Below, in pieces: positions 1 to 37,367 of a stretch of DNA of 64,000 nucleotides (positions are counted from its first letter, which is position 1; each line of letters begins with the position of its first letter). Origin of the DNA: Romanomermis culicivorax (Eukaryota; Nematoda; Enoplea; Mermithida; Mermithidae); assembly GCA_963922205.1 (NCBI GenBank), contig CAWUHX010000086.1:1-64000 (forward strand), in the 5' to 3' direction. The position numbers and the translations under genes are program-made. The notes beneath the pieces were generated by a model. It was not told the DNA's origin. It saw only the letters and a program-made list of their open reading frames with translations, and made no database searches.

Positions 1-67
1 TGCACTAAAACATACTGCACTGCAATATACTATAATTGAAATAAGGTTATAAATTGATCAGTTTTGC

Positions 68-3000
68 CTACCATTCTAACAATTTACGCCAATGTCGTCG
101 GCCCTCCGTGTTGATTTGATCTTTGTTTACAATGAAACACTTTCCTGCTTCCAACGATGGAAACATAGTAGCGTTGCCAACAACAATAAGCAAGCATCGC
201 GCACGGCTTATTGCGACATTTAAACGTTTAAAGTTTTCCAAGAATCCGATGGTCAGATATTGATTTGATCGCACGATGTCGTAGATGACAATGTCGGATT
301 CTTGACCCTGTTAAAAACCCTAAAGTAATGTATAGTGAGTTAAGTAGTAATCATAATTTACCACCTGAAACCCGTCTACTGTTCCAATTCGAATTTTGCG
401 TAGATCTTCAACGAATAATTCGCTACGTGAGTAGCTGTGATTCTGCAAATATGTGCCATTTAAAATGGCTTTGCATGCTTCCTCTACTTTTGCTCGTAGT
501 TGTTTAACCTGTGCGCTGTACGACGTTATAATAACTATGTTGTCGCAGCGCATTTTGTATTGTCCAATTAAGGAAGCCGCTAGATTGACACATGCAATTG
601 CTTCGCCTATATTTTGCAGAGATCTCGAATTATCGTCGGCGCATTCTTCTTTCGCTATATGAATCCAAGCTACGGGATATCCAGTCATCATTGTCGGAAA
701 TGATTTCGGAAGTTGCAGCATGCGTTGTTCTATAAGCACAAATGTTGAAACGATAAAATTTACTAGTACTCAAATCATTTTAAACATTGTCCCTATACTG
801 AGTCATATTGTTACCTTTGGTGGTACAATTTTGTACCCGATTTTCGTACGTCAAACTACTGACTATGCTTCCAATTGTCGGGTGCATTCGATATTGTTGG
901 TTCAATAATTTGTACGGCATGTTCATGTTGTGTAACCGCTCAAACAGGGTATGACTGAATCCTTTTCGTTCCGCTTCTTTGGAAGTCACACACGGCCCTA
1001 ATTGGCAAGGATCGCCTAAAAGGGTTACCTGAAAGAGCGAAAATGAACGAAAACATAGTACTTGGAAGGGAAATATCTAACAGTTCATTACCCTTCCACT
1101 TATGTGAAGTCTTGTAACCGGAATCAAGGTGGTTGGTTCAGTATCCTGGGCTGCTTCGTCGATCAATACCAGTTTGAAAAAGCATGCTTTTAGGCGGGCA
1201 TCGGCTGCTCCATTGCAAGTCGTAAAGATTATACGATATTTGCACCTGAGTAGCTGTTTTTCCTATTTGAATAGGCACGCATCTGCTTTTTTGTCTTCGT
1301 CTTTCGTGAGTGGTGTCTTTCGTGAGTGGTCACCATACTTCATTTCGATGCATTGCCTCCAGTTTGTTTTGCTGAAGTTGAAAAGATAGAAACAAGTACA
1401 ATGTTAAACAGACGGAAACAAATTATGTATTATAAAGTTTAGATATCTTTACCAAAATGCCAAATTTTCCGGCTGCATTGCTACGGCTCGCATTGTGTGG
1501 GGTCGAATATCATCGTCCGGCTGGTAGTACTTAGCTCGGCTGATAAGGCGCACGATGTTATTTTGAACGCGTTCTTTTTTATTGCCTGCATTTTCAACAC
1601 TTTTCAAAAGTGCTCGTATGATATTGTCTACGGCAGTGTTTGAAGGCGCCGTTATCAATATTTTTTGACCCTGATCAAGGGCTAATGCTCGTCTAATAAT
1701 ACAAGTAGCTGTGGATGTTTTTCCCGTTCCAGGCGGGCCCTGTACAAACAAGTTAAGCGTAAGAGTTGAAAGATATAAATATCTTTAAAAATAAAATAAC
1801 CTGTATTATCGAAATAAAATTCGATTCTGAAAGGCGAACGGCCTCTTGTTGAGACATGTTCAGACGGCAAGAGTCAAACAGGTCGTTGCGATTTGCGCCT
1901 ATATCGCGATATCGACAAGTAGCTGTGGGATCACGATGTTTTCCACGAATCAATAGATCACGAATGGGTTCGCTAATCTGTGGTGCTGTTTCATTGAGAG
2001 GTCGGAGCGGCATTCCGGAGGCTTCATCAATATACTTAGTGCCCATCTCTTTTTCTTTCAACTTTAACCGCCACATTGCGGTGTTGGAGTCCACCATGCT
2101 CAAGTGCTTTATGGTGTTGAGGCAGTTTAGTGTTCTAAATAAACGATGATGCTCAACGACAAAAAATTTGAAGGTCTACGAACCCAAAAAATAAATATGA
2201 ATGCTTTATACACATATACCTTTGCATCGCCGTATCATCTCCTTTCCAAAGGATGTTGCACATTTTGCGGCCCGGTTGGCGACTTGATTCGACAAATTTT
2301 CCTAGGGCATTGGCGGCATCTTGGTCCCATTCCAGGTCTTCTGCATCGTCTTGATCTTCGGCATCAGTATCGAATGGTGCATGTTTCGATGCCATCCACT
2401 TTTGCAACTTGTTTATGCGAAACTTGAGGATGTCGACGACTAAATTGGCGCTTCTATCTAAAAACAATTGCAAGTAATAAATTTTATTAAATTTTATTCT
2501 GCTCGATTACTCACTATCGGGTACATTGAGTAGCGTTGCATCGCAATACGCATCAGTTTCGTACCACCTGCCATCACCTCCAAGCTCCAAAATCGTCAAT
2601 TGAATCTTTTGATTCGGACGAACGACTAAAGATATATGTTGGATTTGAATTGCAATGAGGTCAAAATGACATATCAACTCACAATTGGGTAGCAGCCCGC
2701 TGAAGTCCAATTTTCCTGTGGCGTATGAAGGCGGATCTAGCAAGTACTCGATTGACTGAAAGTGTTTGCTGAACGCCAACAACATTTTATCATTATCGTC
2801 GGCTTGTTGATTTATCCAGTGTAAAAAAGTATTGTAATATTCATTCGGCGAATGATACCTAAAAGCAGTTGTAAATAATCAACAATAAAACAGGGTTTTT
2901 TTGGGGGAATTTTGCGGAAAATACAATGTGTAACCATACCTGCACTTGGGGGGGGGCTGGGGGGGACCCCTCCCCCAACTCGGCCAACCCTATACCCAAA

Positions 3001-3590
3001 ATCATTTCCCCCCCCCCAACCCCCCCCCCCCCAGTTGGGAAAAAATTAAAAAAATTTGTCAAAAAGTGTATGTTTTTTGGCCTTTTTTGGGGAAAATTTC
3101 GACTTTTTCCTACCCCCCCCCCAACTGGTCGGAGGTCTCCCAAAATTTCGGATTTACCCCCCCCCCCCCTGACTGGTCGTAGGTCCTACAGGTATGCGTG
3201 GAACTGTAGACCGACAAGATCACGAACGGAAAAAAATAACGAAGGACTTACGCAGCTTTCTGACATGGTTTTTCAAATTCGTCTGATTCGTCGACTGTCT
3301 GCTCCACAAAAGCGCTGAATCCAGTTTCGTAATCAAAACTGCATTTCACATTATTGTGGTCGTACGACACAGTATTCGGCGCAATATGTTTTATTGGTTC
3401 TTGAGGTTCATGGAATTCTTCGTAGTGTACTTCTACGGCGTCTAATTCATCGAACTCCTCCTCAACTTCGGCGTTGATCGGAGGCTAACAAATAATTATA
3501 CAACTTAGAATTATCACAAATGTGTGATTTTGAAAGACAAGTTACCTCAAACGGCGCAGGCTCGTCGATATGTGAGTGCGAATAGGACAT
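68..3590 (-). CDS. SF1 (UPF1-like) DNA/RNA helicase of a large transposon, 10 exons, one in-frame UAG
   Basis: Superfamily 1 helicase with NTP-driven unwinding motifs, closest in style to UPF1/SMUBP2-type AAA_11/AAA_12 helicases. Minus-strand exons by GT-AG and phase: 3590-3546, 3484-3252, 2858-2515, 2457-2220, 2134-1801, 1739-1453, 1371-1092, 1028-815, 729-365, 307-68. They sum to 860 codons including the final stop. Visible motifs: Walker A GPPGTGKT at residues 399-406, motif II DEAA at 565-568, GDPCQLGP at about 592, QYRMHP at about 632, TVDGFQGQESD spanning the last splice, and NVAISRARC near 808-818. The N-terminal about 390 residues are acidic and not recognised. One in-frame TAG (codon 530, bases 1265-1263) lies between motifs Ia and II. 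A 93-nt in-frame segment, 1338-1246, begins GTATGG and ends CTACTCAG, and could be an intron that removes it. Intron 2 holds a MITE. The gene is divergent from the transposase at 6699, and both carry the ACAGCTACTY word, so it is probably an accessory gene of the same element. Confidence 0.85.
2935..3196. mobile_element. Poly-C/poly-G MITE with CATACCTG ends, inside helicase intron 2
   Basis: A 262-bp segment starts CATACCTG and ends CAGGTATG, with long G and C homopolymers inside. Flanking octamers TGTGTAAC and CGTGGAAC match at 6 of 8 positions, which fits an eroded 8-bp target duplication. It lies wholly inside the intron 3251-2859 of the helicase gene. Relatives occur at 18410-18651, 19887-20084 and, less complete, near 17768 and 21341. 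Confidence 0.7.
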
Positions 3591-3845
3591 ATTAGTTGTC
3601 GTGAAGAAACAGGAAACACGACCGCTTGTTCAACAATAAATAAATAAAATGAGGCCTCACGTTTATCGTTGTAAACGTGAGTAGCTGTACAAAAAGTTGC
3701 TTCGCCAACAATCAACGAAAGAAATAATAAATCGTACGTAAAGGTTGGTTGTTGTAAAACGAGTAGCTGTGTAACACGTTTTCACAACGTTGTCTAAAAA
3801 AATTACGTAAATCGCCAATATCCCCCCCGTCATAATTAATGGTTA
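3591..3845 (-). promoter_or_regulatory. Leader/upstream region of the helicase with two ACAGCTACTC copies
   Basis: This stretch lies just upstream of the helicase ATG at 3590. It contains two exact copies of the word, in helicase sense, at 3688-3679 and 3770-3761. A short inverted repeat, CGTTTACAACGATAAACG, sits beside the first. No TATA box is convincing. A role as 5' UTR or as protein-binding site is inference. Confidence 0.35.
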
Positions 3846-4010
3846 CCTATTGTTCTGAAGGTTGCGATAAGCTTTGACACTTGCTCTCGGCTTCCCGTTT
3901 TGCACCAGCGAAGCGATGATGATTTGGTGGCGGGGGGCGGCGTTGAATTGAAACGGAGTTTTTGAAAAAAGTTTTGCGAATTGCGAGTGATGGATTTACA
4001 GTAAACTATT
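3846..4010 (-). other. Possible unassigned exon, minus strand
   Basis: An open stretch of about 50 codons on the minus strand ends ...RNLQNN before a GTAACC donor at 3845. It has coding-like composition (LVQNGKPRASVKAYRNL). I found no start codon or good acceptor for it, so it may be an exon of the Arg-rich gene or chance. Low confidence. Confidence 0.2.
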
Positions 4011-5063
4011 CATCTTATTCTTTTATTTTCAGGATTCGGATATAACTTGTTTGTCATAACACAAAATGCATATTATAGTTTTATGCACTTTCGCGTTACC
4101 ATGAACCAACAATGAAAAGTTTTAGTCACATACAATGAATGTCGGTAAAATATTTCAAATACGAGCAGTATTTTACGACTCAACTCCTCCATTTGCCACT
4201 ATTGCAAATTTAATTGCAACAGTGCCCAGCCGTGGGGACGTGGACCCTGAGGTTACGCACAGCCATGTGCAAAACTTAAAAAACTTAAAAAAACCGTGCA
4301 AAAGATCAAACAAATATATAAAGAAAATTGTACACAACCATGACTAGAAAACATAGATGGATAGAGACAGAATTAGGAAATTAAAGAATTTTTTTGTGTG
4401 TTTTTATTTTTAGAATTTTTTTTTATTTTTATTTTTTTATTTTTTAGGTTTTAAATGTTTTTTATGAATGTGCGTAATATAAACCTAACAAAATTAAAAA
4501 AAGCAATAAACAAAACATTAACAAATTGGGAAAAAAGTAAAACTAAATTTGACAAAAAATACCATAAAACCAAACATAAACATAAAGAAATAAAATAAAT
4601 GTTAACAAAACTTAAATTTGAAATTAACGTGCACAATTTAAAACTATGTTAACATTACATATATACAAAGCGTGGTTTCTTCCAAAACAAGTCTTAATCT
4701 TGTATCTATAAATTGTTTCAATTTTCAGTTTCAAAACATTCAATTTTCTATGTTTCGTTTCAAATTATAAAATTATTCAGTTATGTTTCGGGTTAAATTT
4801 GTACAACAGCAGTAAGCTTTTGAGCATAGCAACCTAAGTAGCGTTTGGAAAAAACCACATCGAATACATTGTGACTAGAAATAAACAATGAACACATGCA
4901 CACATCACAATAAAATGGAAAACTCACAGTACTTACAGAACACAATAATAAACATTACTCTTCATTAATATTAAAAATTTAGACTAGTATTGAAGGAGGA
5001 CCTACGCGGGCAAGGAACCCAACCATTGGAATTCCACCAACGTACTCTGTTGTATAAACTTAC
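4011..5063. other. AT-rich stretch without a supported gene
   Basis: A T-rich/A-rich low-complexity tract (4380-4640) and short uninteresting frames. It is probably the downstream intron or 3' region of the Arg-rich minus-strand gene. I see no conserved motif and no ACAGCTACTY copy. Confidence 0.4.
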
Positions 5064-5793
5064 CCCAATTCGCCAGCATACTCGGCGTGCTCCTCGAAGT
5101 TGGCCAATGTTTATGTCCGCATCGACATCCATGTTTTCGAATATAGGTGGCGGATCTTCTACTTCGGCAAAGCCTTGGCCAATTCCATTCATAATTACAT
5201 CGTTGAATTGATCAACATTAACGTGATTAAGTTCGTTGATCTGTAGATTATCTGGATTTTCTTCGCGGCATGGAGGGTTTGCACCACGTCTCATGTTCCG
5301 ACGCCTAACCCCAATTTGTCTATTGTTGCGTCGCCGACGTTGTTGTCCTCGTCGCGCTGCACATTCATTGGAAAAAAAATTATGGACAATTATTAACTTT
5401 CAATGTATCTCCTTTATACAGCATAATTATCTTTCTGTTTACATAATGATCTTCCTTTTTTATATTTTTCAAATGATTATGGTTACAATGTGGAATCTAT
5501 TTACCTCTTCGGGGTGCTCTTATTAGAATCAATGGCAAATCATCATCGTCAATTTCTGGAATCGGATTAGCCATATCAACGACAGGGTCTTCATTGCCGT
5601 TGAGTAGCTGTGCTTCTTGCGGGGGTTCGCGTTGGGGAAATTCCGGAATTGGATTAGCTATATCAACGACATGATCTTGATTGCCGTTGAGTAGCTGTCT
5701 GGCCCGTCTACGCAAACGACGTGGATGACGCCGGGCATTGTCCACTCTTCTTCGATGTCTCCCAATGCTGATTGATACGTGTATGCGAGGCAT
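5064..5793 (-). CDS. Arg-rich protein with duplicated QLLNGN..ANPIPE unit, two exons, 3' end not resolved
   Basis: Two minus-strand exons join in phase: 5793-5505 (ATG, 289 nt) and 5356-5064 (293 nt), through a GTAAAT donor and a TGCAG acceptor. A good GTAAGT donor follows at 5063. The product is very basic at first (RHRRRVDNARRHPRRLRRR), then has two copies of a unit QLLNGNxDxVVDxANPIPE encoded by an 87-bp DNA duplication. It continues with an arginine-rich linker and an acidic tail containing DVDADINIGQ. Each unit begins with an exact ACAGCTACTC, read here as Gln-Leu-Leu. I recognise no family. The basic part could bind nucleic acid. It sits between the two divergent transposon genes in helicase orientation. 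The downstream exons were not found. Confidence 0.55.
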
Positions 5794-5882
5794 TTCGAGT
5801 GAAAAAAGGTTTGTAGAGTAATTCTTCTTTCAAGCAAGAATGATACGCTATTCTATTAAGGTGCATCTTAGGGGCAAAGTCC

Positions 5883-6035
5883 ATGTTTGTGCATAAAGGT
5901 AAACATTCGTTTCCTACTGTAATGTTTACTGGTCACTCATTCCATGTGGACAAAGGACAGGAAGCAAAAATTGATTATGTGTTGCGCAATGAAGAATGTT
6001 ACGAATCTCGGGTTGGATTGATGGGTCATGTATAA
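5883..6035 (+). CDS. 50-codon mini-ORF resembling a FLYWCH zinc-finger remnant
   Basis: ATG to TAA, 50 codons. The pattern (HKGKHSF, a GHSF centre, then EECYESRVGLMGH) resembles the FLYWCH zinc finger found in MULE-type transposases and some animal DNA-binding proteins, but the usual W-x-C is missing. It lies upstream of the transposase gene on the same strand. It may be a degenerate exon, a small stand-alone protein, or chance. Confidence 0.35.
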   Translation: MFVHKGKHSFPTVMFTGHSFHVDKGQEAKIDYVLRNEECYESRVGLMGHV

Positions 6036-6698
6036 AATTGTACATAGGAAAACAATTTTGCAAGCTTGTGTTGTACCAGGAGAAAAATCTGGGCCAGAAA
6101 ACCCTAAGATGATCAAATGTCGTTATATTGTTTATGTGAAATAAATATTGTGACTGTTAGATACAATTGTGTTCATGTTTGTACATATATTGCATTTCAA
6201 ATTGCAGGTAGCTGTTTACTGTAACATTGATATTGCGCCCCATTTCTTCATCGCGCAGCGCAAGCATTGCAACGCATTTTTGCCCGACCCGAGTCTTGCG
6301 TTTCAAAGAAACAACGAATGACGCCTAAAAGTAAGATTGACAACTAATATTACTTTTTGTGTTAGCCTAATGTATTAAGTAATTTTAGTTAATGCTTATG
6401 GTATTATTGATTGTTATTTATTTTTCGTATTTTTTGCTTTAGCAAACGACGAATGAAATTGTATTTTTTCGCAATTACGTAATTGGATCCACAGCTACTC
6501 ACCGTCTACGATAGAAATTAAAAATTCTACGATTTACCGCTTTTACCTCGGCTACTCACACGTCACCAACCAAATTATTCTCTGTCGATATAGACCACGA
6601 CGTAGCAATTAGAATTTATAGTAAATTCGTTGTCTGTCAGCTACTCACAAAGTCAACAATAATTGACATTCACAAAGTCGCTCACAGCTACTCAAGTA
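6036..6698 (+). promoter_or_regulatory. Upstream region of transposase gene with clustered ACAGCTACTC-type words
   Basis: Within the last 210 bp before the transposase ATG there are exact copies at 6491-6500 and 6684-6693, and one-off variants at 6550 and 6637, all in transposase sense. A variant in the opposite sense (GGTAGCTGT) is at about 6218. The cluster mirrors the two copies upstream of the helicase ATG. A role as binding site for the transposase or for transcription control is inference. Confidence 0.4.
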
Positions 6699-9600
6699 AT
6701 GTATTCGGACGACAACCAATACGACTCCGACGACGATTTCAAGCTAACTCCTAGTCTACCGTCGCAAGTTGATCAACCTAAAGATGATCTGCCCAAGATC
6801 GAATCAAATGCAAATGCAACATCTGCCGAAACGGAAGATACGCCAGTTAATTCAGGATGTGCCATTCCCGTTATGACCAACAGACAATGCAGATTAGAAT
6901 ATAAGGACTTGGATAAGTTAATCGGTAAGCTAATTGTTTATTTTGGTGAAACTTACATCCAAAATTAATTACAAGTTGTTTGTATTGTATGTTTTCCAAC
7001 TGTAACTAATATTTAAGGTTCGGCTAACGCAGAACGATTAATCAACAAACCGTCACCATGTCCAAAAGGAGGAGACGTTTACTTGTTTCCTTACTCCAGC
7101 AAAGAAGATAGTAATTTACAGGTTACATTATTTATGTTAACCTTATATAATATTTGTACTTCCTCATAGAAACCTTTCTCTGCGATTGTTTTAATTGGGT
7201 AAACGATGGAGTTCGAAAACTTCCGAGGTCTAATCCAAAGTATTCAGCTACTCACTACGCTGTCGCCTGCGATCGAAATTCCGAAGCAAAGAAGAAATTT
7301 AAAAGAATGGAATATCGGCAGATAAAAACACCAGTGGACGAAAAACTACACGTCGGAGTAGTCCACTACGTTGGCGATGAAAAATATGGCGTCAAGCGAA
7401 AGCATTATAATTCGAACAGTGACAGAGTCTTTATTCGAAATGCTCCAGTAATCAAGAAACTCGTAGAAGTGGAACTTAAACGAGATCCGAACCTTACCGC
7501 TTCTCAATTGTACGAAAAAATTAGAATAGACAATCCTGCTCCACCGGGACTGGAAGCTATCGTACATGGCAGAGATCGAAAACAAGTAAATATAATTAAA
7601 TAAATATCTCAACTAGTACAATTTTTACAACAGTCATAGTTTTAAAGTATAAATGTGTTACAAACTAAAATTACTCTTTTAGATGTCCAACTTCAAATAC
7701 GTTATTCAAAATAAATTTCGGCCGACAAAGGACGCCATATACAATTTAAACACGTTCATTCGCGAGAATGAACGCCAATTTATAATGAGCATAGAACAAA
7801 CGCCTCAAGACTTTTTGGTTTCCTGTATGTTGCCGGACACGCCCGAAATAATCAACGAATTAATAACAGAATATCCAAACGAGCCATTTGTCGTTCTTTA
7901 CGACACGACGTTTGAATTGGGCGAGTTTTATGCGTCAGTATTAATTTATCGCCAAAAAAGCCTTATCGGCCAACCGGTTTTCCCACTCGCCGTACTTATA
8001 CACGAGAAAAAATTCAGAGAAAACCATTGCCGCTTCATAAAAAAAATTTTTCGACAGCTACCCATTCGTATAACGAATGGGAACGTCAAAACCGTTATAA
8101 TTACCGATCGCGAATTTGATTTCCGAAATTTGACGCCAAACACGACTCACGTTTACTGTTGGCGACATTTACTCGACAACGTTACTCGTAAAATTACCGA
8201 TTTGTTTCCCAAAAATAACGACATGCGTGTTGACATATTGAGCAATATGTATTCGATTCTAAAATCGGACTCCGAGAAACTAGCAGCATTAAAAGCTGAA
8301 GAACTTAGCGAAAAATGGCCCGAAAAATTCAAACAATATTACTTTTCGTCCATTGCCCCAGCTGTTCGAACAAGCGGAAAATGGGTGTTGGAACCGATCG
8401 GATTGTACTCCAGCTTCTCAGGTATGTTAATTTTGATATTATTTCAAATATTAACAAACGTAATGTTTTCATACGTCAAAAGCCTATAGTTTTAATTTAC
8501 TAAAGCAAATAATATAGTTTTCATTAATTAATTTAAATACGTATTTTAGGCATAACGACCAACGCTAGCGAAAGTTTCAACAGAGTCCTGAAGAGCTGGA
8601 ATTCTTGGCGAGAAATGCCCATCGACGTGGCCGTTCTCGCTTTCCACACCTTGTTTAATTATTACAACGTCGATTATGACCGCGCCAAATATGGACTTGG
8701 GGATTTCAAGCTAAACGCCCACATTCCATTGAGGCCTGCCAACGAAATGCCGAAACGAGATATCATCGAACCGGGAAAGGTTTTACAATATTGTCGATTT
8801 GGCCAAGTATACGTACAACCGCAGAAGGAAGAGCCAAAATTAGATCACCGCGGAGATGCCGATTCAAATTTCCGAATCGGTCAATTTTTGGTCGAAAATG
8901 GAAAGGTGGTCCACGACACCCTTTCAAGAGTAATAATTCATAATGTAGTTTATGTTTTTTTAAATTAATTTGCAAATTTTTTTTAGTGCTTCAACGTAAC
9001 CGAAAACGGCCAGGTGTATCTAGTTCGATTCAACCCCACCAGCTGCGGTTGCGGCGACAAGGCATGCGCCCACTTGATTGCCGCTCGTTTGTCGTGCAAT
9101 TTACCAGTTACCGTGAAGGCAACCAGAAACATCACAACTTTGCGACGTGCGGACAAACGAAAAATAAGTAAATCAAAGTTGGGACGCAAACGACCTCGCA
9201 AGGACGACTTTACGAACGTAAAGCCGAAAATTACGGATGTTGAATTTGACGACGAGGATGACGACGTCGAAATCACGAAGCCCGCAAACACACAAGTAGA
9301 TACAGCTACTTGTTATAAGAACGTAGAAATCAGGCAGCCTGCTAACAAACAAGTAGAAACAGCTACTTGTGTTGACGACGTCAAAATTCAGAAGCCTGCG
9401 ACAAAAGATTTGCATTTCGACACTCAAGTAGATACAGCTACTTGTGCCTACGATTCGCAAACTGATGCCGTTGAAAAAAATAACAGCGATTTTACGAATT
9501 GCCGCGGGCATTCAGAGGAAACAACAAATTGTGCCTACGATGCCGGTCGATTAAATGCGAAACATCTTGAGTAAGTGGTTAAAATATACTTGTTATCATT

Positions 9601-12600
9601 GTGGTTAAAAATCTAATTTACATATTATTCAATTCAGACGCATAGAAGAAGAATGCGAATCATTATTCGATAAGATCGGTAATGCGTCTCCGCCCAATTT
9701 CAACTCCCAGGCGACAGTTTTGGTGGAATCACAATCGCAAACCACCGAAGCTCTAAATACAAAAAGGTAAACATGTAACAAATACGATCTGCACTTACAT
9801 CTTTCAATAAACTTACATATTCAGACCTATTTTAATCACATTACCATTTTCTATTTAAGAGAGACTACAATTATAATTGATTCGCAAATTCCAACCTGCG
9901 ATGAAATTGAAGACACGGATTTAATACCGGAAATGCGACAAAAACCACCAGTAATATTTAATTTATTTTAGAATTATTTTTTAGTTGAACTAATTTAATT
10001 TTTGCATTCAGATGGACTTATCAACGCTAATTACTAACAACCTCTCGAATTTAGAACCCGAAGAGGATGAGGAAATAATAGACCGCCTTAGCGATGTCGA
10101 CGACGATGCTTTATTGAACGTATCATTAAAATCGAAAGATGCGAAGCCGACATTCTGCGAATGTCAAGTCGATAAAACTGTCAATCGCATGCTTGAATGC
10201 GATGCCCAAGTTGCCGAAAATTGCCGAATGTGGTACCATCCCGACTGCGAAAATATTTCCGAAGTTTATTTTTCGCTTAAAAATAATCGAAGAAAACCCG
10301 AAAACAAATTTTATTGGGAATGCGCGCACTGCTTCGTTATTCATTACTTCCGAAATTCGCCGACTGTTCAAAAATATCAACTTCAGAATACTTGTACAAT
10401 CGATCCTGGCCTTACAACTTTCTATATTAAGGCAAAGTTTTGTCCAAAATTCTTGCGACAGGTAATTTAAATGCTATATTACATAACATTCATGAATTAA
10501 TTTCATACTTTACAGCTACCCATCGAATTGTCAATGTTAAAAAAATCCATGACATTGGCACTTAAACATCAATTCGGGGAAGCTGCATTGGAGTGGGTGA
10601 ATTACATACGCTACCAAAAGAATGCGGTACAAGAGAAAAATATAACCAAAGACGGCTCGGGCACAAAGATCGATTTATACGGTGCCGCCGACGAGTTCTT
10701 CTTGAGCCATATCAGCACCTTGTACACTCTACAACGCCGCAGCGAGTGTTCCGTAGCCAAATGCCCTATGCGGATTAACACCCAAGAAATAACCGGCTAT
10801 GCACTGTAAGTCTTTTGTTGATTAATCTCTTTAGGTTTTGAGATACTTGTTAAAAGTTCTTTCTTTTTAAAAAGTGTTTGCATACCCAATTCGAAGTGGA
10901 AATATTGTTTTCCTACGTTTCTGAGTACGGCGGACATTTCTATGACGATTTTAAAAAAATTTAAAAATTTTTGAAAAATTTTAAAAAATTTTAAAAAATT
11001 TAAAAAAATTTTAAAATTTTAAAATTTTGATTTTAACGTGTTCCCCTGACTCTGTTTAGTATGTCGAACAAGTTGGCAAACTATTTTCGACATTTTTAAG
11101 TCTGAAATTCAAGTGATCCGTGAGAAAATAATCCGGGTTTTAGACATGCACGTCTAAAACCCGGATCACTCGGCCACGGATCACTCAATTATTGAAGTGA
11201 AAAATTGTGTTCCGGGTTGGGGAAACATGTTTTCCTACGTTTCTGAGTACGGCGGACATTTCTATGACAATTTTAAAAAATTTTAAAATTTTTTAAAAAA
11301 TTTTAAAAAATTTAAAAAAATTTTAAAATTTTAAAATTTTGATTTTAATGTGTTCCCCTGACCCTGTTTAGTATGTCGAACAAGTTGGCAAACTATTTTC
11401 GACATTTTTAAGTCTGAAATTCAGGTGATCCGTGAGAAAATAATCCGGGTTTTAGACATGCACGTCTAAAACCCGGATCACTCGGCCACGGATCACTCAA
11501 TTTTTGAAGTGAAAAATTGTGTTCTGGGTTGGGGAAACATGTTTTCCTACGTTTCTGAGTACGGCGGACATTTCTATGACAATTTTAAAAAATTTTAAAA
11601 TTTTTTAAAAAATTTTAAAAAATTTAAAAAAATTTTAAAATTTTAAAATTTTGATTTTAACGTGTTCCCCTGACCCTGTTTAGTATGTCGAACAAGTTGG
11701 CAAACTTTTTTCGACATTTTTAAGTCTGAAATTCAGGTGATCCGTGAGAAAATAATCCGGGTTTTAGACATGCACGTCTAAAACCCGGATCACTCGGCCA
11801 CGGATCACTCAATTATTGAAGTGAAAAATTGTGTTCCGGGTTGGGGAAACATGTTTTCCTACGTTTCTGAGTACGGCGGACATTTCTATGACGATTTTAA
11901 AAAATTTTAAAATTTTTTAAAAAATTTTGAAAAATTTAAAAAAATTTTAAAAATTTAAAATTTTGATTTTAACGTGTTCCCCTGACCCTGTTTAGTATGT
12001 CGAACAAGTTGGCAAACTATTTCCGACATTTTTGAGTCTGAAATTTAGGTGATCCGTACCAAGCCGTTACGGATCACTCTGTTTTAAAGTGAAAAGTTGC
12101 GTTTGAGGTTTGCGAAAATTGTTTTTCCCAATTGGACTTTACCGTTTATGTTATAGTACCATTAAAGATAAAACGATCGAGAATTTGGCGAATAAACATC
12201 TTCGCAAAAATAAGCAAATTTGTGGACAAAGACATGAGAACGGGTCGACAAAATGTCCGGGTATACGAACTTTTTTTGCGCCTACCTTTACGATGCAACA
12301 GCTACTCATGTTGCCCCCAATTTATTTGTGCAACGCACCATTCAATGACGTTTTTGCATTGCCGACGGAGTTGACGTTTAATCGACGACGGTAAAAACAA
12401 ACTGGAGTTGTGTTTTGTTTTTTTAAATTTGACATTTTTCAGATATCATCTGTTGTCGGTTATTGTTTATAACTCCAACCACTTCGCATGCATCGTCCTT
12501 CGACCGGGAACTTCATCAAAGGAATATTTCCTTTGCGACGATTTGCAGGAAAAAATGGTACGAGTAGAAGAAGGTAGTGGAAACGGGCATGTTTTACAAT

Positions 12601-12626
12601 ATGCCTTGTATTTTCTAGATTGTTAA
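6699..12626 (+). CDS. MULE-type transposase fused to SWIM, PHD finger and USP-like protease (12 exons, 1271 aa, intact)
   Basis: Exons by canonical splice sites: 6699-6924, 7018-7110, 7170-7585, 7683-8421, 8550-8929, 8987-9570, 9638-9766, 9860-9950, 10012-10461, 10516-10805, 12157-12390, 12443-12626. All phases agree and the sum is 1272 codons. Domains in order: an acidic start; an N-terminal domain of MULE transposases (CDCFNWVNDG, then VVHYVGDE); a DDE core with VLYDTT (D319), IITDRE (D387), CWRHL (C404/H407) and NASESFN (E499); SWIM finger CGCGDKACAH (638-647); a KRK-rich NLS-like patch; three QV(D/E)TATC repeats; PHD finger C4HC3 (about 935-993); and a USP-like domain. The USP-like domain has Cys-box QNTCTIDPGL (C1014), two C-C pairs as in a USP zinc ribbon (1114/1119, 1155/1166), NSNHFAC (H1224) and FLCDD (D1243/1244). 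Mobilises DNA by cut-and-paste (family knowledge). The protease role is inferred. Confidence 0.9.
10865..12120. repeat. About four 312-bp tandem repeats with nested palindromes, filling intron 11 of the transposase gene
   Basis: The word TCCTACGTTTCTGAG recurs at 10911, 11233, 11545 and 11857 (spacings 322, 312, 312). Each of the first three units ends in a nested palindrome. In copy 1 the outer arms are GTGATCCGTG (11113-11122) and CACGGATCAC (11175-11184). The inner arms are ATCCGGGTTTTAGAC (11131-11145) and its complement (11152-11166), with a 6-nt loop. The fourth unit is diverged and lacks the inner stem. The array lies entirely between the donor at 10806 and the acceptor ending 12156. 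Confidence 0.9.
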
Positions 12627-13080
12627 ATATTGTTGTTGTTTTTAATGTTGTTTTGTTAATTTTTCTCTCTTTTTTTGTGTCTTATTTACCGGTTTTACCT
12701 CGTGCAATTTTTAAAATTTTATCTCACTTGTTATTGTTCGTTTAAGTTTTATCGCTTTATAAATTTTATCTCGTTTGTTACTGACTGTTCAAATTATATC
12801 GTTATTGTTCATTTTAATTTTATCGCTTTATAAATTTTATCTCGTCATACTGTAAATAATTGTTAAATTGTTATTGTATTTGTGATTGTTTGTATAGTAT
12901 TTCCGTATACATTTTTCCGTTTTTTTATTTATTTTTTCGTTTTTCTTTTTTTTAGTTTTTTTTTGTTTTTTTAAGTACCTGTTTTTATTTTTTTTATGGC
13001 TTTTTTCCTACTTTTTTTGGTTTATCCTTTTTTTGTTTATTGGTTATTCTTTTTTTTTGTTGTTTTCTTTTGTTCTGTTA
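12627..13080. other. T-rich 3' flank of the transposase gene
   Basis: Low-complexity T-rich plus strand with repeated phrases such as TTTTATCTCGTTTGTTA and TTTATCGCTTTATAAATTTTATCTCG. It probably contains the 3' UTR. No gene is visible. Confidence 0.5.
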
Positions 13081-13082
13081 CT

Positions 13083-13640
13083 GTACATAGTTGTTTGCTT
13101 AAATGTAAATAAAATTTGGTACATAATTGGTACATAACAGGAATCCTGTGATATTGACTGAAAAATAGATGATCCGTAATGCATTAATTCTCTTCCAACC
13201 CGTAGTTTTTATGTTTCATACAAAAACACCGATATATAAAAAATTTCGAATTAATTTGGTATGAGTGGTCTAACGACAGATTAATAGAATTAAACTGTTG
13301 CTAGAGCACCCCTTTTATTTTTTGCCATTTGGGTTTTTTTGTCTTTTTTGGTTTTTAGGCTATTCTTACTGTACATAGTTGTTTGTTTAAATGTAAATAA
13401 AATGTAGTAATTGAATCATAACAGGAATCCTGTGATTGATTGAAAAATAGATGATCCATCTCTATTCGAACTCGTTTTATGAGGTTTCTGACTACATTCA
13501 TTATTTCTCTTCCAAACCGTAGTTTTTATGTTTCAAACAAAAACACCGATATATAAAAAAGTTCGATTTAGTTTTGTATGCGTGGTTTAACAGCAGATTA
13601 ATAGAATTAAACTGTTGTTAGAGCACTCTTTTATATTTTT
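13083..13640. repeat. Two direct copies of a 240-260 bp unit
   Basis: Copy 1 (about 13083-13318) and copy 2 (about 13370-13635) share ACTGTACATAGTTGTTTG, GGAATCCTGTGAT, AAAATAGATGATCC, AACACCGATATATAAAAAA and AGATTAATAGAATTAAACTG in the same order. Copy 2 has an extra stretch of about 45 bp after GATGATCC. No coding potential. Confidence 0.8.
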
Positions 13641-13729
13641 TACATTTTTAATATGTTTGAATTATTGGAAAAATATTTTCCATTTGAATTACCATTTTAT
13701 TAAAAAAAAAACAAAAATAGAACAGGCTA

Positions 13730-14800
13730 AACATTATATCAATGATTTAACAACTGTTCTATCGTACCTGCCAAATAGCAGTTAAGTATATATTTTCAAC
13801 TTTCCTTATAAAACATAAAAGTGACGGGTTGCAAATGTATTCCAGCATTGACAACAGAATGTATCGATCTGGTGACTGCACTTGCTTACTTTTGATGTGG
13901 TTTTAGACACACGTTAAAAATTCGCGCCAACCCGTCAATTTGATGTTCCTACAGTTTCCTAATGTTTATATACATATGCCAATATTGGCTCATTAGGATT
14001 TGATTAACCAAAAGGACAAAAAATCGATGACTTAACAACTATTCTATCAAAGTTTATTTCGTGGACTATGGATAATCGATGACTTAACGACTGTTCTATC
14101 AAAATTTATTTCGTCGACTACGGAACCTTGAGGTTATTCAATCCTTTTGCAGTTGAAGTTGAATATTTACATGGCGCGAGATCAAAATGTACTGATCTGG
14201 TGACTCCACTTGCCTACTTTTGATGTGGTTTTAGACACACGTTAAAAATTCGCACCAACCCGTCAATTTGATGTTCCTACAGTTTCCTCATGTTTATATA
14301 CATATGCCAATATTGGCTCTTAGGATTTGATTAACCAAAAAGGACTAAATCGATGACTTAACGACTGTTCTATCGATGTTTACTTGTTCTACTATTAAAG
14401 TTTTACTTGATAGATTATGGAATTATGGAACCTTGAGGTTATTCAATCCTTTTGCAGTTTAAGTTGCACATCCTCAAAACCCATTCATGAATGCTCATAA
14501 AAAATATTTACATGGCGCCAGATCAAAATGTACTGATCTGGTGACTCCACTTGCATACTTTTGATGTGGTTTTAGACACACGTTAAAAATTCGCATCAAC
14601 CCGTCAATTTGATGTTTCTACAGTTTCATCAAATTTATATATGTGTGCCAATATGGGCTCATTAGGATTTGAACAAACCAGAAAGGCAAAAACTTAATTG
14701 ATGAATTAACAACTGTTCTATCGAAATTTATTTTATCGATTTCGGCAATACCGAACCTTGAGGTTGTTCAATCCTTTTGCATTTTAAGTTAAACATAGAC
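13730..14800. repeat. Three to four direct copies of a roughly 350-bp unit
   Basis: Shared phrases recur in order: GATGACTTAACAACTGTTCTATC, then CCTTGAGGTTATTCAATCC, GATCTGGTGACTCCACTTGC, GTGGTTTTAGACACACG, CCCGTCAATTTGATG and GCCAATATTGGCTC. The GTGGTTTTAGACACACG word lies near 13899, 14225 and 14568. Units end near ATTAACCAAAA. No coding potential. Confidence 0.8.
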
Positions 14801-15289
14801 ATATAGAAAGTATATACACGGATCCAGATCCGTAAACTTTTTTTTTCAAACCTAGGTGCAGTTTAACATAATACAAATTCAAATACATTTTCTCCTAAAT
14901 TTTTTATACACAAATATATGTAAAGTCATGGAACCAATAACTAACCTGTTACTTTCCTTAATGCCCAGAAAACTATGCCGACTCTTGATTGCATAATAAA
15001 GCACAATAAATGGCTAACGAATAAAAATACTTTACGTATTCACATATAACGATACAGATCCGTACACAAAATTTAAATAAACCACTCCACGGATCCTGAT
15101 TCGTAAAAAAATTTTCTGCCTAAACATATAAGGCTGGGTAAACATATATGGCTGGGAAAACATGGCTGGGTAAACATTTGGAATAAGTGATTAATGTTTG
15201 CTCAACTAGCATTATACACGGATCCAGATAAGTACACAAAATTGCAATAAAAAGAATACTAATACAATTTATTCTATGTAAAACCGGTT
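14801..15289. other. Non-coding stretch with scattered GATCC words
   Basis: No open frame of note. ACGGATCC/GATCCGTA words recur (14819, 15053, 15097, 15215), linking it to the neighbouring repeat families. AAACATATATGGCTGGG is locally repeated near 15130-15170. Confidence 0.4.
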
Positions 15290-15935
15290 ATACAGAATAA
15301 ATACACATGCATTTATTCTCTGTCATCCCGTCGACGTGATGTTTCAATGCTTTTCTCTTCTTTATATACACCTGCAAATGTGACTTCGTTATGTAATTGA
15401 ACAACCGAATAATAATCCCGTAGGGATCCAATTTTAATCGGACTACAAAACAGGAAATGGCTTAACTACTGTTCTATCAGATGCTGAGTGGAGTCGGAAA
15501 TTCACTTCACTGTTGTTCAATAGTTTTACAAAATTTTCTTTTTCAAAATATTTTTAATATTTATCCAAACCTGATCAAAAATAGTGATCCAGGTCCGTAC
15601 ACATAATTGCAATAAAAAAAATCCTAATACACATGCATTTATTATAAAAAACCCTACTAAACCAATAAAAACACTACTAATACACATGCATTTATTCTGT
15701 GTTATCCCGTAGACGTGATGTTTCAATGCTTTTCTCTTCTTTATATACATTTGCAAAATTGACTTAGTTATGTAATTGAACCAACCGAATAATGATCCCG
15801 TAGGGATCTGAATCCCGTAGGGATCCGTGCAGAATGTGCCGTCATTACGGAACAACATAACCACTGAATGGTTTAACAACTGCTCTATCAGATGTTGCAT
15901 TTTGAAGAATCGTCAAATTTAGAACAACATCACTA
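15290..15935. repeat. Two direct copies of a roughly 210-bp unit
   Basis: Both copies (about 15296-15480 and 15672-15895) carry ACACATGCATTTATTCT, GACGTGATGTTTCAATGC, CTCTTCTTTATATACA, TATGTAATTGAAC and CCCGTAGGGATC. CCCGTAGGGAT is itself repeated inside copy 2. No credible gene on either strand. Confidence 0.75.
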
Positions 15936-16029
15936 AACGGTTGTTCAATCGTTTTTTATTTTATTCAAAAAATGTTTTTTATTTTATTCGAATTCAAAAT
16001 ACAAAAAATTTACATTCGTCAAACATCGA

Positions 16030-16640
16030 AAATCTTTAACCCTAGGTGGAAATTTGAAAAAAATTTTGATGAAATATTGATCCACATCAAAATCTGTTTA
16101 TGTGATGGATAGAAATCTGATTAAGTGATGTTAATTTACTCTTAACGACGGTAAAATACGAAAAATTTTACTCTAAGTGAAAATTTGAAGAAAAAAAATT
16201 TTGATCCGGATCAAAAATCGTGATCCGGATCAAATTATGATGATGTGACGTTAATTTACTCATCACGACGTTAAAATACGAAAAATTTTACTCTAGGTGA
16301 AAATTTGAAAAAAAAAATTTTGATCCGGATCAAAATCGTGATCCGGATCAAAATATGATGATGTGACGTTAATTTACTCATCACGACGTTAAAATACGAA
16401 AAATTTTACTCTAGGTGAAAATTTGAAAAAAAAAATTGATCCGGATCAAAAATATTGATCTGGATCAAATTCTGATTATGTGACGTGAATATACTCATCA
16501 CGACGAAAAAATTCGAAAAATTTTGATCTAGATCAAAAAATTTTGATCTGGATCAAAAATTTTGATCCGGATCAAAATATCGTGATCCGGATCAAAAATT
16601 CGGGTTCCCGATCAAAAATTAGTACATACAAACCCGATCC
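16030..16640. repeat. Tandem repeats of about 115-120 bp rich in TTGATCCGGATCAA palindromes
   Basis: Four to five imperfect units share TTAATTTACTCATCACGACG, AAAATACGAAAAATTTTACTC, GGTGAAAATTTGAA and the self-complementary TTGATCCGGATCAA. The last part collapses into back-to-back GATCCGGATCAAAA words. Confidence 0.8.
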
Positions 16641-16870
16641 GTGGGGGGTGATCCGTGATGAAAATCCGGGTTTTAGACGAATTTTCCACGGATCCGGATC
16701 ACCGGACTGATCCGCCGTGATCCGTGATAATCCGGGTTTTAGACACCTAAAAACATGGTTTGGCGAGCCAAACCCCCGATCCGCCGATCCGCCGATCCGT
16801 GGTGATCCGGGTTTTAGACACCCGATCCGGATCCGGATCCGTGACCATGATCCGGGTTTTAGTACTACCC
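16641..16870. repeat. GATCCG / CCGGGTTTTAGAC repeat cluster
   Basis: The word ATCCGGGTTTTAGACR occurs here three to four times (near 16664, 16729, 16806, 16848), with CGGATCCGGATC palindromes. It is the same word that forms the inner hairpin stem of the tandem repeats in the transposase intron 5 kb upstream, so the two arrays are related. It may mark the right end of the element. Confidence 0.7.
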
Positions 16871-17487
16871 CTAAAAAAGTGGTGAATTTGCCAGGTATGA
16901 GGAGAATTAAGGGCAAAAAATGGTTTACTTCGAATCAACTTCGAGTCTTCCGTCGATCAGGAGACGAATTCTAAGACAAATTTCATTGTAAGAGTCGATC
17001 TCGGCTCAAATTATGAAATCAATTTGTCATACCCTTCTTTTTTCTCGTTGCACATCGAGAATAGATTTCCTAGCATCATTAGAAAAAGTACAACAGGTTA
17101 GTAAGCGGAAATGAGCTCGATTGATGAGAAGACGCGATTTAAACTTCTCATGTAATAAATGTTGCAGCCAATCAGAGCCAGCTTTCAATTTTTGCAGTAA
17201 TACTCAGATATCAAATCGAAGAATGATGCTTTATTTCTTGAACAATTATCCATATTTGATTATTTCCAGAACGACAAGTCTGCACAAACTCCCGTTCAAT
17301 AAGTTCCAATAAAGTAAACGTTTACTGTATTTCCGAGCGAGAAGATCCGGCGCCGTGCGAAAAAAATCGTATTCGGATTTTTCAACGCGCGCGTTCCTTG
17401 TTCGCGCTCTGTCTCGCCACTATCGCTGGCTGTCGCCATTCCTGTTCCATTCGCTGCGGTGTGGTTTTAGGTTTTTACGTAAAAATT
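16871..17487. other. Intergenic stretch, nothing recognised
   Basis: Mixed-composition DNA with a more GC-rich part from 17340 to 17460. I see no gene, repeat or RNA that I can support. It may contain a promoter for the short frame that starts at 17488. Confidence 0.3.
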
Positions 17488-17739: not shown

Positions 17740-17990
17740 CCTGTAATCGGGAGTGGTTGGGGGTGACCATACCTGTAAGAGGTCCAATCAGTTGGGGAGG
17801 GGGTAAACCCGCAATTTTGGGGGAGGGGTCGAAAAAAGTCGAAATTTTTCCCAAAAAAGGCTCTTTTTTGTCAATTTTTTCTAGTCTGGGGCACTGTTTT
17901 TTTCCCCGGGCCTTTTCCCCAAATGGGGAAAGGGGTCAAAACTTTTTTCTCCATTTTCCCGAAGTCGTTTTTTTCGCTTAAAAATGCTCA
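17740..17990. mobile_element. Degenerate CATACCTG-type C/G-rich element
   Basis: CATACCTGTAAGAGGTCC begins at 17768, the same end sequence seen in reverse at the right end of the 18410-18651 element. It is followed by G-rich runs and a FILE-like phrase repeated at 19500 (CCCCAAATGGGGAAAG). A second partial end, ACGTACCTGTAATCGGG, lies at about 17734. The right end is not clear. Confidence 0.5.
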
Positions 17991-18227
17991 CAGACGCTTT
18001 ATTTAGGTGTTTTTGAGTCTTTTCAAGCCTTCTGGTGTTTTCAGACCCGTTAATTCATTAAAATTGAGGAAAAATTGAAATTTTCGAGTTTCAATTCTAA
18101 TTTACAAGCATTGGAACAAACTTTCAAGCAAACTATCCAAAAGCATAATGATTTTGAATTACATGAGAAATCAATGGTCAAGTCCTCTATGACGACAAGT
18201 GAGAACCCAAAAGGAATGTTAATCTTC

Positions 18228-18244
18228 CCGGCGCGAAGCGCCGG
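18228..18244. repeat. CCGGCGC-GAA-GCGCCGG hairpin repeat, copy 1
   Basis: A perfect 7-bp inverted repeat with a GAA loop. Shorter or identical copies lie at 19434-19446 and 26787-26803, each followed by GGAAAA and a similar stretch. It marks a small dispersed repeat family. Confidence 0.6.
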
Positions 18245-18409
18245 AAAAATTTTTTGGGTATTGATATTCTGTGACGCTGGAAAATCAATTTTCCAAACAT
18301 TTATTTCAAGAATTAGATTTGAATTTTGTGTTCAAAAGTCGTAATTTCTAGAATTTTACTTGAAAAATTTTAAAACCAGTATTTGTAAACTCTCATACTT
18401 GGTCGAAAA

Positions 18410-18651
18410 CATACCTGTACTTGGGGGGGGGGGTTGGGGGGGACCCCCCCCCAACTCGGCCAACCCTGTACCCAAAATCATTTCCTCGCCGACCCCCCCC
18501 CCCCCTAGTTGGGAAAAAATTAAAAAAATTTGCCAAAAAGTGTATGTTTTTTGGCCTTTTTTGGGAAAAATTTCGACTTTTTCCTACCCCCCCCCCCCAA
18601 AATTTCGGATTTACCCCCCCCCCCCAACTGGTCGGAGGTCTTACAGGTATG
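18410..18651. mobile_element. Poly-C/poly-G MITE with CATACCTGTA ends and 8-bp target duplication
   Basis: A 242-bp element begins CATACCTGTACTTGGG and ends GGTCTTACAGGTATG. Perfect octamers GTCGAAAA flank it at 18402-18409 and 18652-18659. The interior has runs of 9-12 C or G. It is closely similar to 2935-3196. An 8-bp duplication is typical of hAT-like transposases. No coding capacity. Confidence 0.85.
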
Positions 18652-18782
18652 GTCGAAAATATATGAGTAAGCAGAGTGTAAATTTCCGAAAGATATTTCT
18701 ATGAAGCGTTTGAATTGATTTTACGTTAGAAAAGAAATAATTGCATCAAAAAGCTTAGAGACTTAGAATAGAATAGAATAGT

Positions 18783-19485: not shown

Positions 19486-20140
19486 ATGCATCTTTTCTGT
19501 ATCCGATCCCCAAAATTTTCTTCCCCAAATGGGGAAAGAGCCCAGAATTTTTTTCCCTTTCCCGATTTTTTTTTCCCGAAAAAGCACGATTTGGGAAAAA
19601 ACAGTGGTCTGGGGGGGTTGGGTATATGGTTGGCCAAGTTGGGGGGTCCCCCCAACGCCTTCCCCATGGGGGCCCCCACCCTTAAATTTGTTGAACTCTA
19701 TACCCAAATGTTGGGACCTCCACCCCCAACTTGGTCAACCCTATACCCAACCCCCCAACCTTCCCCCATACTAGAAAAAATTAGGAAAAAAGTGGCTTTT
19801 TGGGAAGATTTTCGAAATTTTTTCGACTCTTTTGGGGTCTTTTCGACCCCCTCCCCCAAATTTTGGAAATTTCGGGACCCCCACCCCATACCTGTAAGAG
19901 GTCCGACCAGTTGGGTGGGGGGTAAACCCGAAATTTTTTTTAAGAGGGGGTCGGAAAAGGCCGAAAATTTTCCCAAAAAAGGCACTTTTTTGCCTTGCCA
20001 ATTTTTTCATGTTTGTGGGTGGGTTGGGTACCAGGTTGGCCAAGTTGGGGGTCCCCCCAACCCCGCCCCCCAATTACAGGTATGTCCCACCCCAAACTTT
20101 TCGGTTTCCCCCTCAACTGGCCGAACCTCACAGGTATGTA
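19486..20140. mobile_element. Nest of C/G-rich CATACCTG-family elements
   Basis: An inner element, 19887-20084, has CATACCTGTAAGAGG at its left end and ATTACAGGTATG at its right. Flanking octamers CCCCACCC and TCCCACCC match at 7 of 8 positions. It lies inside further C/G-rich sequence that ends CTCACAGGTATG at about 20138, probably the right end of an older host copy. The long frames on both strands come from the lack of stops in C/G runs. Confidence 0.6.
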
Positions 20141-37321: not shown

Positions 37322-37367
37322 AAAAACACAGTGCCCCGCCACCTCCACTAAAACATTCTATTGGCCA

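Follow-up and report, generated by a model that had tools for sequence, protein, structure and literature searches.

Introduction

In Arabidopsis, the VANC21 and VANC6 proteins of VANDAL transposons, which are Mutator-like elements (MULEs), are associated with different short motifs (YAGTATTAY and AGTTGTCC/AGTTGTAC, respectively) and strip methylation from whole elements. Co-evolution of these proteins with their motifs has been proposed; the motifs occupy non-coding sequence and are often tandemly repeated (PMC5735166 and PMC10398659, in the portions available to us). We analyzed a window of 64,000 bases from the nematode Romanomermis culicivorax (positions 1 to 64,000 of contig C86, in an assembly of 359,112,060 bases and 595 contigs that was covered by all genome-wide searches). 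The window contains a MULE-like transposon in which a 10-base word, ACAGCTACTY (word A), is dispersed. To our knowledge, target words particular to a transposon family are known for VANC, in plants and in non-coding DNA. The nematode element resembles the VANDAL systems in being MULE-like and in having a short, multicopy motif that differs between related families, and specificity for the own family would be a further likeness. In contrast to the VANC motifs, which are read on double-stranded, non-coding plant DNA, the word described here belongs to an animal transposon and lies in gene sense in coding exons (10 of 14 exact copies) or upstream of start codons (4 of 14). The strongest fact, and the one that is new here, is that a related family has a word of its own, which it uses in the same manner.

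Results

Copy number and orientation of the word

Word A occurs 14 times in the window, with eight copies on the minus strand (positions 429 to 5698) and six on the plus strand (6491 to 12307), and all 14 are in gene sense when both strands are counted. This exact recount bore out every coordinate and strand in the initial annotation, a by-eye reading of the sequence, as well as its statement that antisense copies are absent from the element and exact copies absent from the other 51 kb of the window, where none was found on either strand. Dinucleotide shuffles of the whole window gave a mean of 0.12 copies and a maximum of 2 (100 shuffles). In the oriented arms (1-10,800 and 12,050-12,700), the top 9-mer was ACAGCTACT, found 14 times compared to 0.21 expected under a third-order Markov model. 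Simple chance is therefore ruled out by the shuffles and the Markov expectation. As a control, the four best 8-mers per strand were taken from four 12-kb blocks between 13.5 and 61.5 kb. The strongest, GGTTTTAG, reached a log10 P of -9.7 in the block from 13.5 to 25.5 kb and was repeat derived, and the next blocks reached -4.0 or weaker, compared to -17.2 for ACAGCTAC of the element. About 11 of the 14 exact words are independent once local duplications are discounted, as the words at 5602 and 5689 sit in one short duplication and those at 9302, 9359, and 9434 in a repeated QV(D/E)TATC coding unit. A one-mismatch search recovered the three variants already noticed by eye (6637, 7244, and 8054, plus strand), two more in gene sense (10512, plus; 6206, minus), and three others at 12973 (minus), 35248 (minus), and 51736 (plus).

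Placement within the element

In the copies read, the word recurs in gene sense alone, both within coding exons and shortly before the start codons of all three genes. The four exact words outside the coding sequence (CDS) lie 5 to ~210 nucleotides (nt) upstream of start codons. Words in the CDS fall in phases 0, 1, and 2 (TAT, HSYS, and QLL), which agrees with the initial annotation, where the word was read in different frames as QLL, TATC, and Ser-Ala-Thr. The same source had also placed words in untranslated regions (UTRs) and splice acceptors. The first part holds insofar as words lie upstream of ATGs, in presumed 5' UTRs, but the only acceptor case is the variant at 10512. We do not count that variant as a functional copy, since the acceptor splits the word and the mature mRNA would contain no whole word there.

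Every exact word points away from ~6.2 kb, as would be expected of a polar DNA signal (Chi- or KOPS-like) directed outward from the center, or of an excision site, that is read by the helicase or transposase; the element does encode a helicase. However, such a signal should extend into introns and ends, and no exact word was found in the modeled introns (3,203 bases) or outside the gene-bearing core in 20-kb stretches of three other copies, c1, c2a, and c2b. We know of no sequence-specific stops for UPF1-like helicases, and we consider a polar signal improbable. The end regions of the element carry other repeats. The lack of exact words beyond the core in these three copies also disfavors binding of the transposase to the ends, one form of the transposase-binding site suggested in the initial annotation. 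Muta MULEs of Aedes similarly contain short repeats of 9 to 15 bp, but these occupy the termini, within or beside the terminal inverted repeats, whereas the words described here avoid the ends (PMC5225508, as far as its available text goes).

A sister family with its own word

The transposase core exon had 151 matches in the genome, with identities down to 37-38%. Relatives that are 46% identical in this exon (family B) lack ACAGCTACTY and carry ACAGATACCTC instead. One of them, L069, has the same divergent gene layout as the window element and contains 10 ATACCTC cores, four of them as ACAGATACCTC, with 9 of the 10 in gene sense; on its transposase strand the core occurs 8 times compared to 1.19 expected. 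A second relative, L070 (also 46%), is a rearranged copy with 8 ATACCTC cores, 3 oriented with the transposase and 2 with the helicase. L071 represents a third branch (50% identical to L069 and 39% to the window) and carries ACAGATAC three times, always in sense and once as the full ACAGATACCTC. L069, L070, and L071 contain no ACAGCTACTY, and the three family-A cores examined contain no ATACCTC. Two homologous places carry the word of the respective family. One is directly before the transposase ATG, where L069 has a ACAGATACCTC in the position of window word 6684. The other is in the helicase, where ACAGCTACTCAC at window position 429 (QNHSYSRS) corresponds to GGATACCTCAC in L070 (ENGYLTPT), a different peptide. 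A further candidate for a separate family, L072, proved to be a truncated family-A copy. A possible likeness of the family-B word to a let-7-like seed was considered and dropped.

These findings bear on the possibility that a host factor, such as a splicing or mRNA stability protein, reads the exonic word and that favorable sites for it have built up in the element. The words are exonic, sense only, and close to start codons, and genes with many introns could gain from exonic enhancers. However, a host factor would be expected to select one word in both families, whereas each of the families read has its own. Many modeled exons also lack the word, as does the rest of the window, and we regard a host reader as quite unlikely.

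Selection on the word

Protein-preserving codon shuffles, a comparison proposed in the initial annotation, failed to make words (mean of 0.168 sense words and maximum of 2 in 2,000 shuffles, compared to 10 in the CDS), which rules out protein repeats as the sole cause. No antisense word occurs in the CDS. Copies c1 and c2a are ~8% diverged from the window. With gaps counted, none of 180 word positions was changed in c1, compared to 934 of 10,676 positions elsewhere; the 18 words compared comprised 13 exact ones, all of those up to 10.8 kb, together with the variants at 6206, 6637, 7244, 8054, and 10512. In c2a, 1 of 160 word positions (16 words) was changed, compared to 696 of 9,032 elsewhere. 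The same was seen within the CDS only, with 0 of 110 word positions changed compared to 319 of 6,431 in c1 and 1 of 80 compared to 221 of 5,061 in c2a. In 10 of 100,000 draws, every member of a class-matched random set of 16 10-mers was unchanged in c1; when the test was made with 13 independent words, this was so in 36 of 100,000 draws. The word at 3761 was intact in c1 although its aligned flanks were only 72% identical. Copy c2c, which has no homologue of word 6684 and beyond, had 2 of 11 scorable words altered. Across 29 rows of the transposase region (27 distinct), from which three truncated copies had been dropped, 2 of 80 word columns were variable compared to 444 of 3,548, a proportion matched by 27 of 5,000 draws.

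The word is under purifying selection as nucleic acid and is not due to chance, coding, or mere descent. The three phases, the codon shuffles, and the resistance to substitution between copies thus uphold the view in the initial annotation that selection acts on nucleic acid rather than on protein. Chance, coding repeats, and common descent might together mimic a dispersed word, given the local duplications (5602/5689 and 9302/9359/9434), the sites that copies share by descent, and the variant at 8054, which is the weakest case because its Gln-Leu/Ile-Pro peptide itself recurs in relatives. However, the simple form of this explanation is contradicted by the codon shuffles and the three phases, and the excess conservation between copies and the different word carried by relatives under the same orientation rule also argue against it. 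We consider it very improbable.

Genome-wide distribution

ACAGCTACTY also occurs elsewhere in the genome, in excess over its reversed control (2,048 compared to 1,572 over 359 Mb). The excess was greater for ACAGCTACTCAC (445 compared to 36). Among the 100 ACAGCTACTCAC matches listed, 40 distinct places were within 9 kb of 14 of the 22 family-A exons (C1-C31), an exon set that left out three short fragments, two on C5 and one on C28. The matches near these exons were scored 41 times as sense and twice as antisense; the two antisense scores arose because the 9-kb reach catches words of a neighboring copy at C10:2006295. The 8 family-A exons without ACAGCTACTCAC among the matches listed were on C5 (seven) and C10 (one), and L072, the one of these that was read, is truncated. 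The other 60 of the 100 places were unplaced relative to elements, and three of them were loci of an integrase-like repeat. When 15 loci with isolated word matches were followed, ACAGCTACTCAC was found in four (L003, L009, L026, and L030). Three of these (L003, L026, and L030, at about base 1500) share a common integrase-like repeat, presumably Ty3/gypsy, which contains ACAGCTACTCAC once, as AYNAVPHTATHFSPF. This occurrence is a coincidence, and part of the genome-wide excess is therefore unrelated to the element.

The family-B word ACAGATACCTC occurred 361 times, compared to 69 for the reversed pattern. Among the 100 matches listed, 44 were within 9 kb of 9 of the 11 family-B exons on C1-C48, and the two exons without a listed match were both on C7. 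When a point 1.6 kb upstream of the exon was taken as the border between the arms, every one of the 44 was in gene sense and none in antisense. Copies share ancestry, and the genome-wide places are not independent trials. The initial annotation held that equal density in unrelated genes or a lack of strand bias would speak against its claim; neither was found, and the claim stands.

The element, its genes, and its surroundings

A UPF1-like helicase gene and an Arg-rich gene run leftward and a transposase gene rightward (Table 1), and the left end of the element lies beyond the window. The in-frame stop in the helicase of the window copy is absent from copies c1, c2b, and c2c. PF10551 matched the transposase core exon weakly (E value of 0.1; 13.5 bits, compared to a cutoff of 27.6) and did not match the spliced protein. 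A transposase homologue, P0004, is 29% identical over 88% of the 716-amino-acid (aa) query and carries PF10551, PHD, and C48, from which we infer a C48-like C terminus for the transposase. By eye, a SWIM-like CxC...CxH pattern lies at ~9040-9080, where a Pfam search gave no SWIM or FLYWCH match. A PHD-like finger with a score below the cutoff lies at ~10.16-10.33 kb. The named protein matches found were also from R. culicivorax, and one scan of viral contigs found no relative.

Table 1. Positions of the genes, exact words, and sense one-mismatch variants in the window
Feature	Position	Strand	Context
UPF1-like superfamily 1 (SF1) helicase gene	68..3590	-	10 exons modeled; AAA_11 and AAA_12 matches; one in-frame stop
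Arg-rich protein gene	5065..5793	-	two exons modeled; 3' end putative
MULE-like transposase gene	6699..12625	+	12 exons modeled; 1,271 aa, no stop
Word ACAGCTACTC	429..438	-	helicase CDS, HSYS frame; family-B word at homologous place in L070
Word ACAGCTACTC	1248..1257	-	helicase CDS, QLL frame
Word ACAGCTACTT	1703..1712	-	helicase CDS, directly past Walker A (GKTSTATC)
Word ACAGCTACTT	1917..1926	-	helicase CDS, TATC frame
Word ACAGCTACTC	3679..3688	-	~90 nt upstream of helicase ATG, presumed 5' UTR
Word ACAGCTACTC	3761..3770	-	~170 nt upstream of helicase ATG
Word ACAGCTACTC	5602..5611	-	Arg-rich gene CDS, QLLN
Word ACAGCTACTC	5689..5698	-	Arg-rich gene CDS, QLLN; duplicate of 5602
Variant ACAGCTACCT	6206..6215	-	upstream of Arg-rich gene; unchanged in c1, c2a, c2b, and c2c
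Word ACAGCTACTC	6491..6500	+	upstream of transposase ATG; unchanged in 29/29 rows
Variant TCAGCTACTC	6637..6646	+	upstream of transposase ATG; unchanged in 29/29 rows
Word ACAGCTACTC	6684..6693	+	immediately before transposase ATG (6699); place of the sister word in family B
Variant TCAGCTACTC	7244..7253	+	transposase CDS; 28/29 rows
Variant ACAGCTACCC	8054..8063	+	transposase CDS, RQLP; weakest case
Word ACAGCTACTT	9302..9311	+	transposase, QVDTATC repeat
Word ACAGCTACTT	9359..9368	+	transposase, QVETATC repeat; 27/29 rows
Word ACAGCTACTT	9434..9443	+	transposase, QVDTATC repeat
Variant ACAGCTACCC	10512..10521	+	spans splice acceptor; probably nonfunctional copy
Word ACAGCTACTC	12298..12307	+	transposase CDS (QQLLM), close to C terminus

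Several other repeats were seen. A tandem repeat of ~310 bp lies at 10900-12060, within the longest transposase intron; copies c1 and c2c also have it in inverted orientation in their left parts. The stretch at 13100-16900 is noncoding and repeat rich, with many GATCCGGATC-like units; it is homologous among copies, contains no ACAGCTACTY, and probably lies toward the right end of the element. By eye, the helicase leader (3655-3688) contains a 10-bp inverted repeat, CTCACGTTTA / TAAACGTGAG, which could form a hairpin and starts with the last three letters of word 3679. A G-run-rich repeat (GACCAGTTGGGGG...), also found by eye, lies at 2940-3190, in a helicase intron, and farther right at 17740-18660 and 19500-20110. 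Elsewhere in the window are a block resembling a long terminal repeat retroelement (36167-41361; zinc-knuckle open reading frame [ORF], Monjiviricetes_fusion glycoprotein match, aspartic protease, and reverse transcriptase) and an exon with an OATP transporter match (56852-57475), likely of a host gene.

Discussion

We tentatively propose, at somewhat less than even confidence, that the word is a multicopy, family-specific tag that is read on sense mRNAs by a putative element-encoded factor. The difference in word set between the families suggests a family-specific reader and is what a binding site with a family-changing reader would show, as proposed for VANC. Because the words differ in concert between families, the reader would be encoded by the element. 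The transposase, present in both families, is the best candidate. The Arg-rich protein is a poorer one, as no Arg-rich ORF was seen in the 6 kb of L069 that were read. Such a reader would bind the word on the sense mRNAs of the element, and each family's protein would find its own transcripts and ignore those of the sister family. Recognition of own transcripts may serve to protect them, to export them, or to use them in cis. An RNA medium is a weaker step than the element-encoded reader and is drawn only from the sense-only placement of the word and its restriction to gene bodies.

The element could instead encode a VANC-like protein whose target is the word in double-stranded DNA and which keeps DNA methylation or other silent marks off its own family, with protein and word co-evolving. 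The words of the two related families are mutually exclusive in the copies read, which is consistent with this explanation. The Arabidopsis VANC21/VANC6 pair provides a precedent for different motifs and element-wide removal of methylation (PMC5735166 and PMC10398659, available portions), and DNA methylation machinery is stated for R. culicivorax in the part of PMC4323106 at hand. However, VANC motifs are noncoding, whereas most of the exact words here are in coding exons and none is in the modeled introns or end regions, and a reader of double-stranded DNA leaves the strict orientation unexplained. We consider this alternative unlikely, though a serious one.

Several observations weigh against a family tag on mRNA. 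The exonic and directional placement points to RNA, but two features limit this inference. Gene sense and the outward direction are indistinguishable and form one variable, because all modeled genes diverge from ~6.2 kb, and the introns are short, with ~3.5 of 14 words expected there by length and ~2 when the two longest introns are left aside. RNA folding gave a mean unpaired value of 0.43 for 17 words and 0.47 for 80 background places, indicating no special accessibility. The first conservation test, with 32 rows (the window, 29 loci, c1, and c2a; 30 distinct), was null, with 20 of 80 word columns variable compared to 865 of 3,548 and a fraction of 0.61 of draws as low. This is attributed to L050, L052, and L065, which lose homology in the transposase region, and conservation was positive only after these three truncated copies were dropped. 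In family B, 1 of the 10 ATACCTC cores of L069 is antisense, 2 of the 8 in L070 oppose the transposase and 1 of the 8 is unplaced, and L070 carries one CAGCTACT, part of word A. Assignments to elements cover the first 100 places listed per pattern; for word B, 56 of these are unassigned. A structure model of the N-terminal exon had a mean predicted local distance difference test score of 41, too poor for use. The exon models are predictions, and the reader, its binding, and the transcripts are all putative, from sequence alone.

An mRNA tag of this kind would share features with other described systems. The DSR hexanucleotide of fission yeast is likewise a short transcript motif that recruits an RNA-binding protein, Mmi1, but it belongs to a host system that eliminates host transcripts and is not specific to a transposon family (PMC3352096, as described in its available part). 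Packaging signals of RNA viruses are dispersed sites on sense RNA that are bound by a self-encoded protein; in contrast to the element, they lie on one genomic RNA and are read by a coat protein (PMC4751978 and PMC7793301, available portions). No capsid gene was noticed in the element, and no search aimed at one was made. Rehavkus elements, PHD-finger relatives of MULEs with a minisatellite ahead of the 3' terminal inverted repeat, resemble the element in their MULE-like transposase, PHD-like finger, and repeat-rich end region, the candidates here for the last two being the finger below the cutoff and the repeats at 13-17 kb; neither a helicase nor a dispersed word is mentioned for Rehavkus in the available part of PMC6446971. 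A literature search for transposons with dispersed sense motifs or with self-recognition gave no match, from which we make no wider claim of absence.

In a broader form, animal transposons may build a family-specific word into all of their own mRNAs, in exons and 5' leaders alike and in every frame, by which a self-encoded protein would recognize them. Word and reader would change together when families split, which would amount to an RNA-level self/non-self code between sister transposons. We hold this broader form to be possible but rather doubtful. An animal MULE-like element does seem to keep a word in one orientation in its coding exons, in any frame, and its sister family seems to keep another. 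Should the reader be identified, the pair of words would allow a clean swap test of self versus sister and of RNA versus DNA. R. culicivorax belongs to nematode clade I, and no Piwi-interacting RNAs are reported outside clade V (PMC4323106, in the part available). Together with the methylation machinery stated for this species in the same source, the finding therefore bears on how transposons survive there. In this mosquito-killing worm, the tag may mark each family's own messages or genes for recognition.

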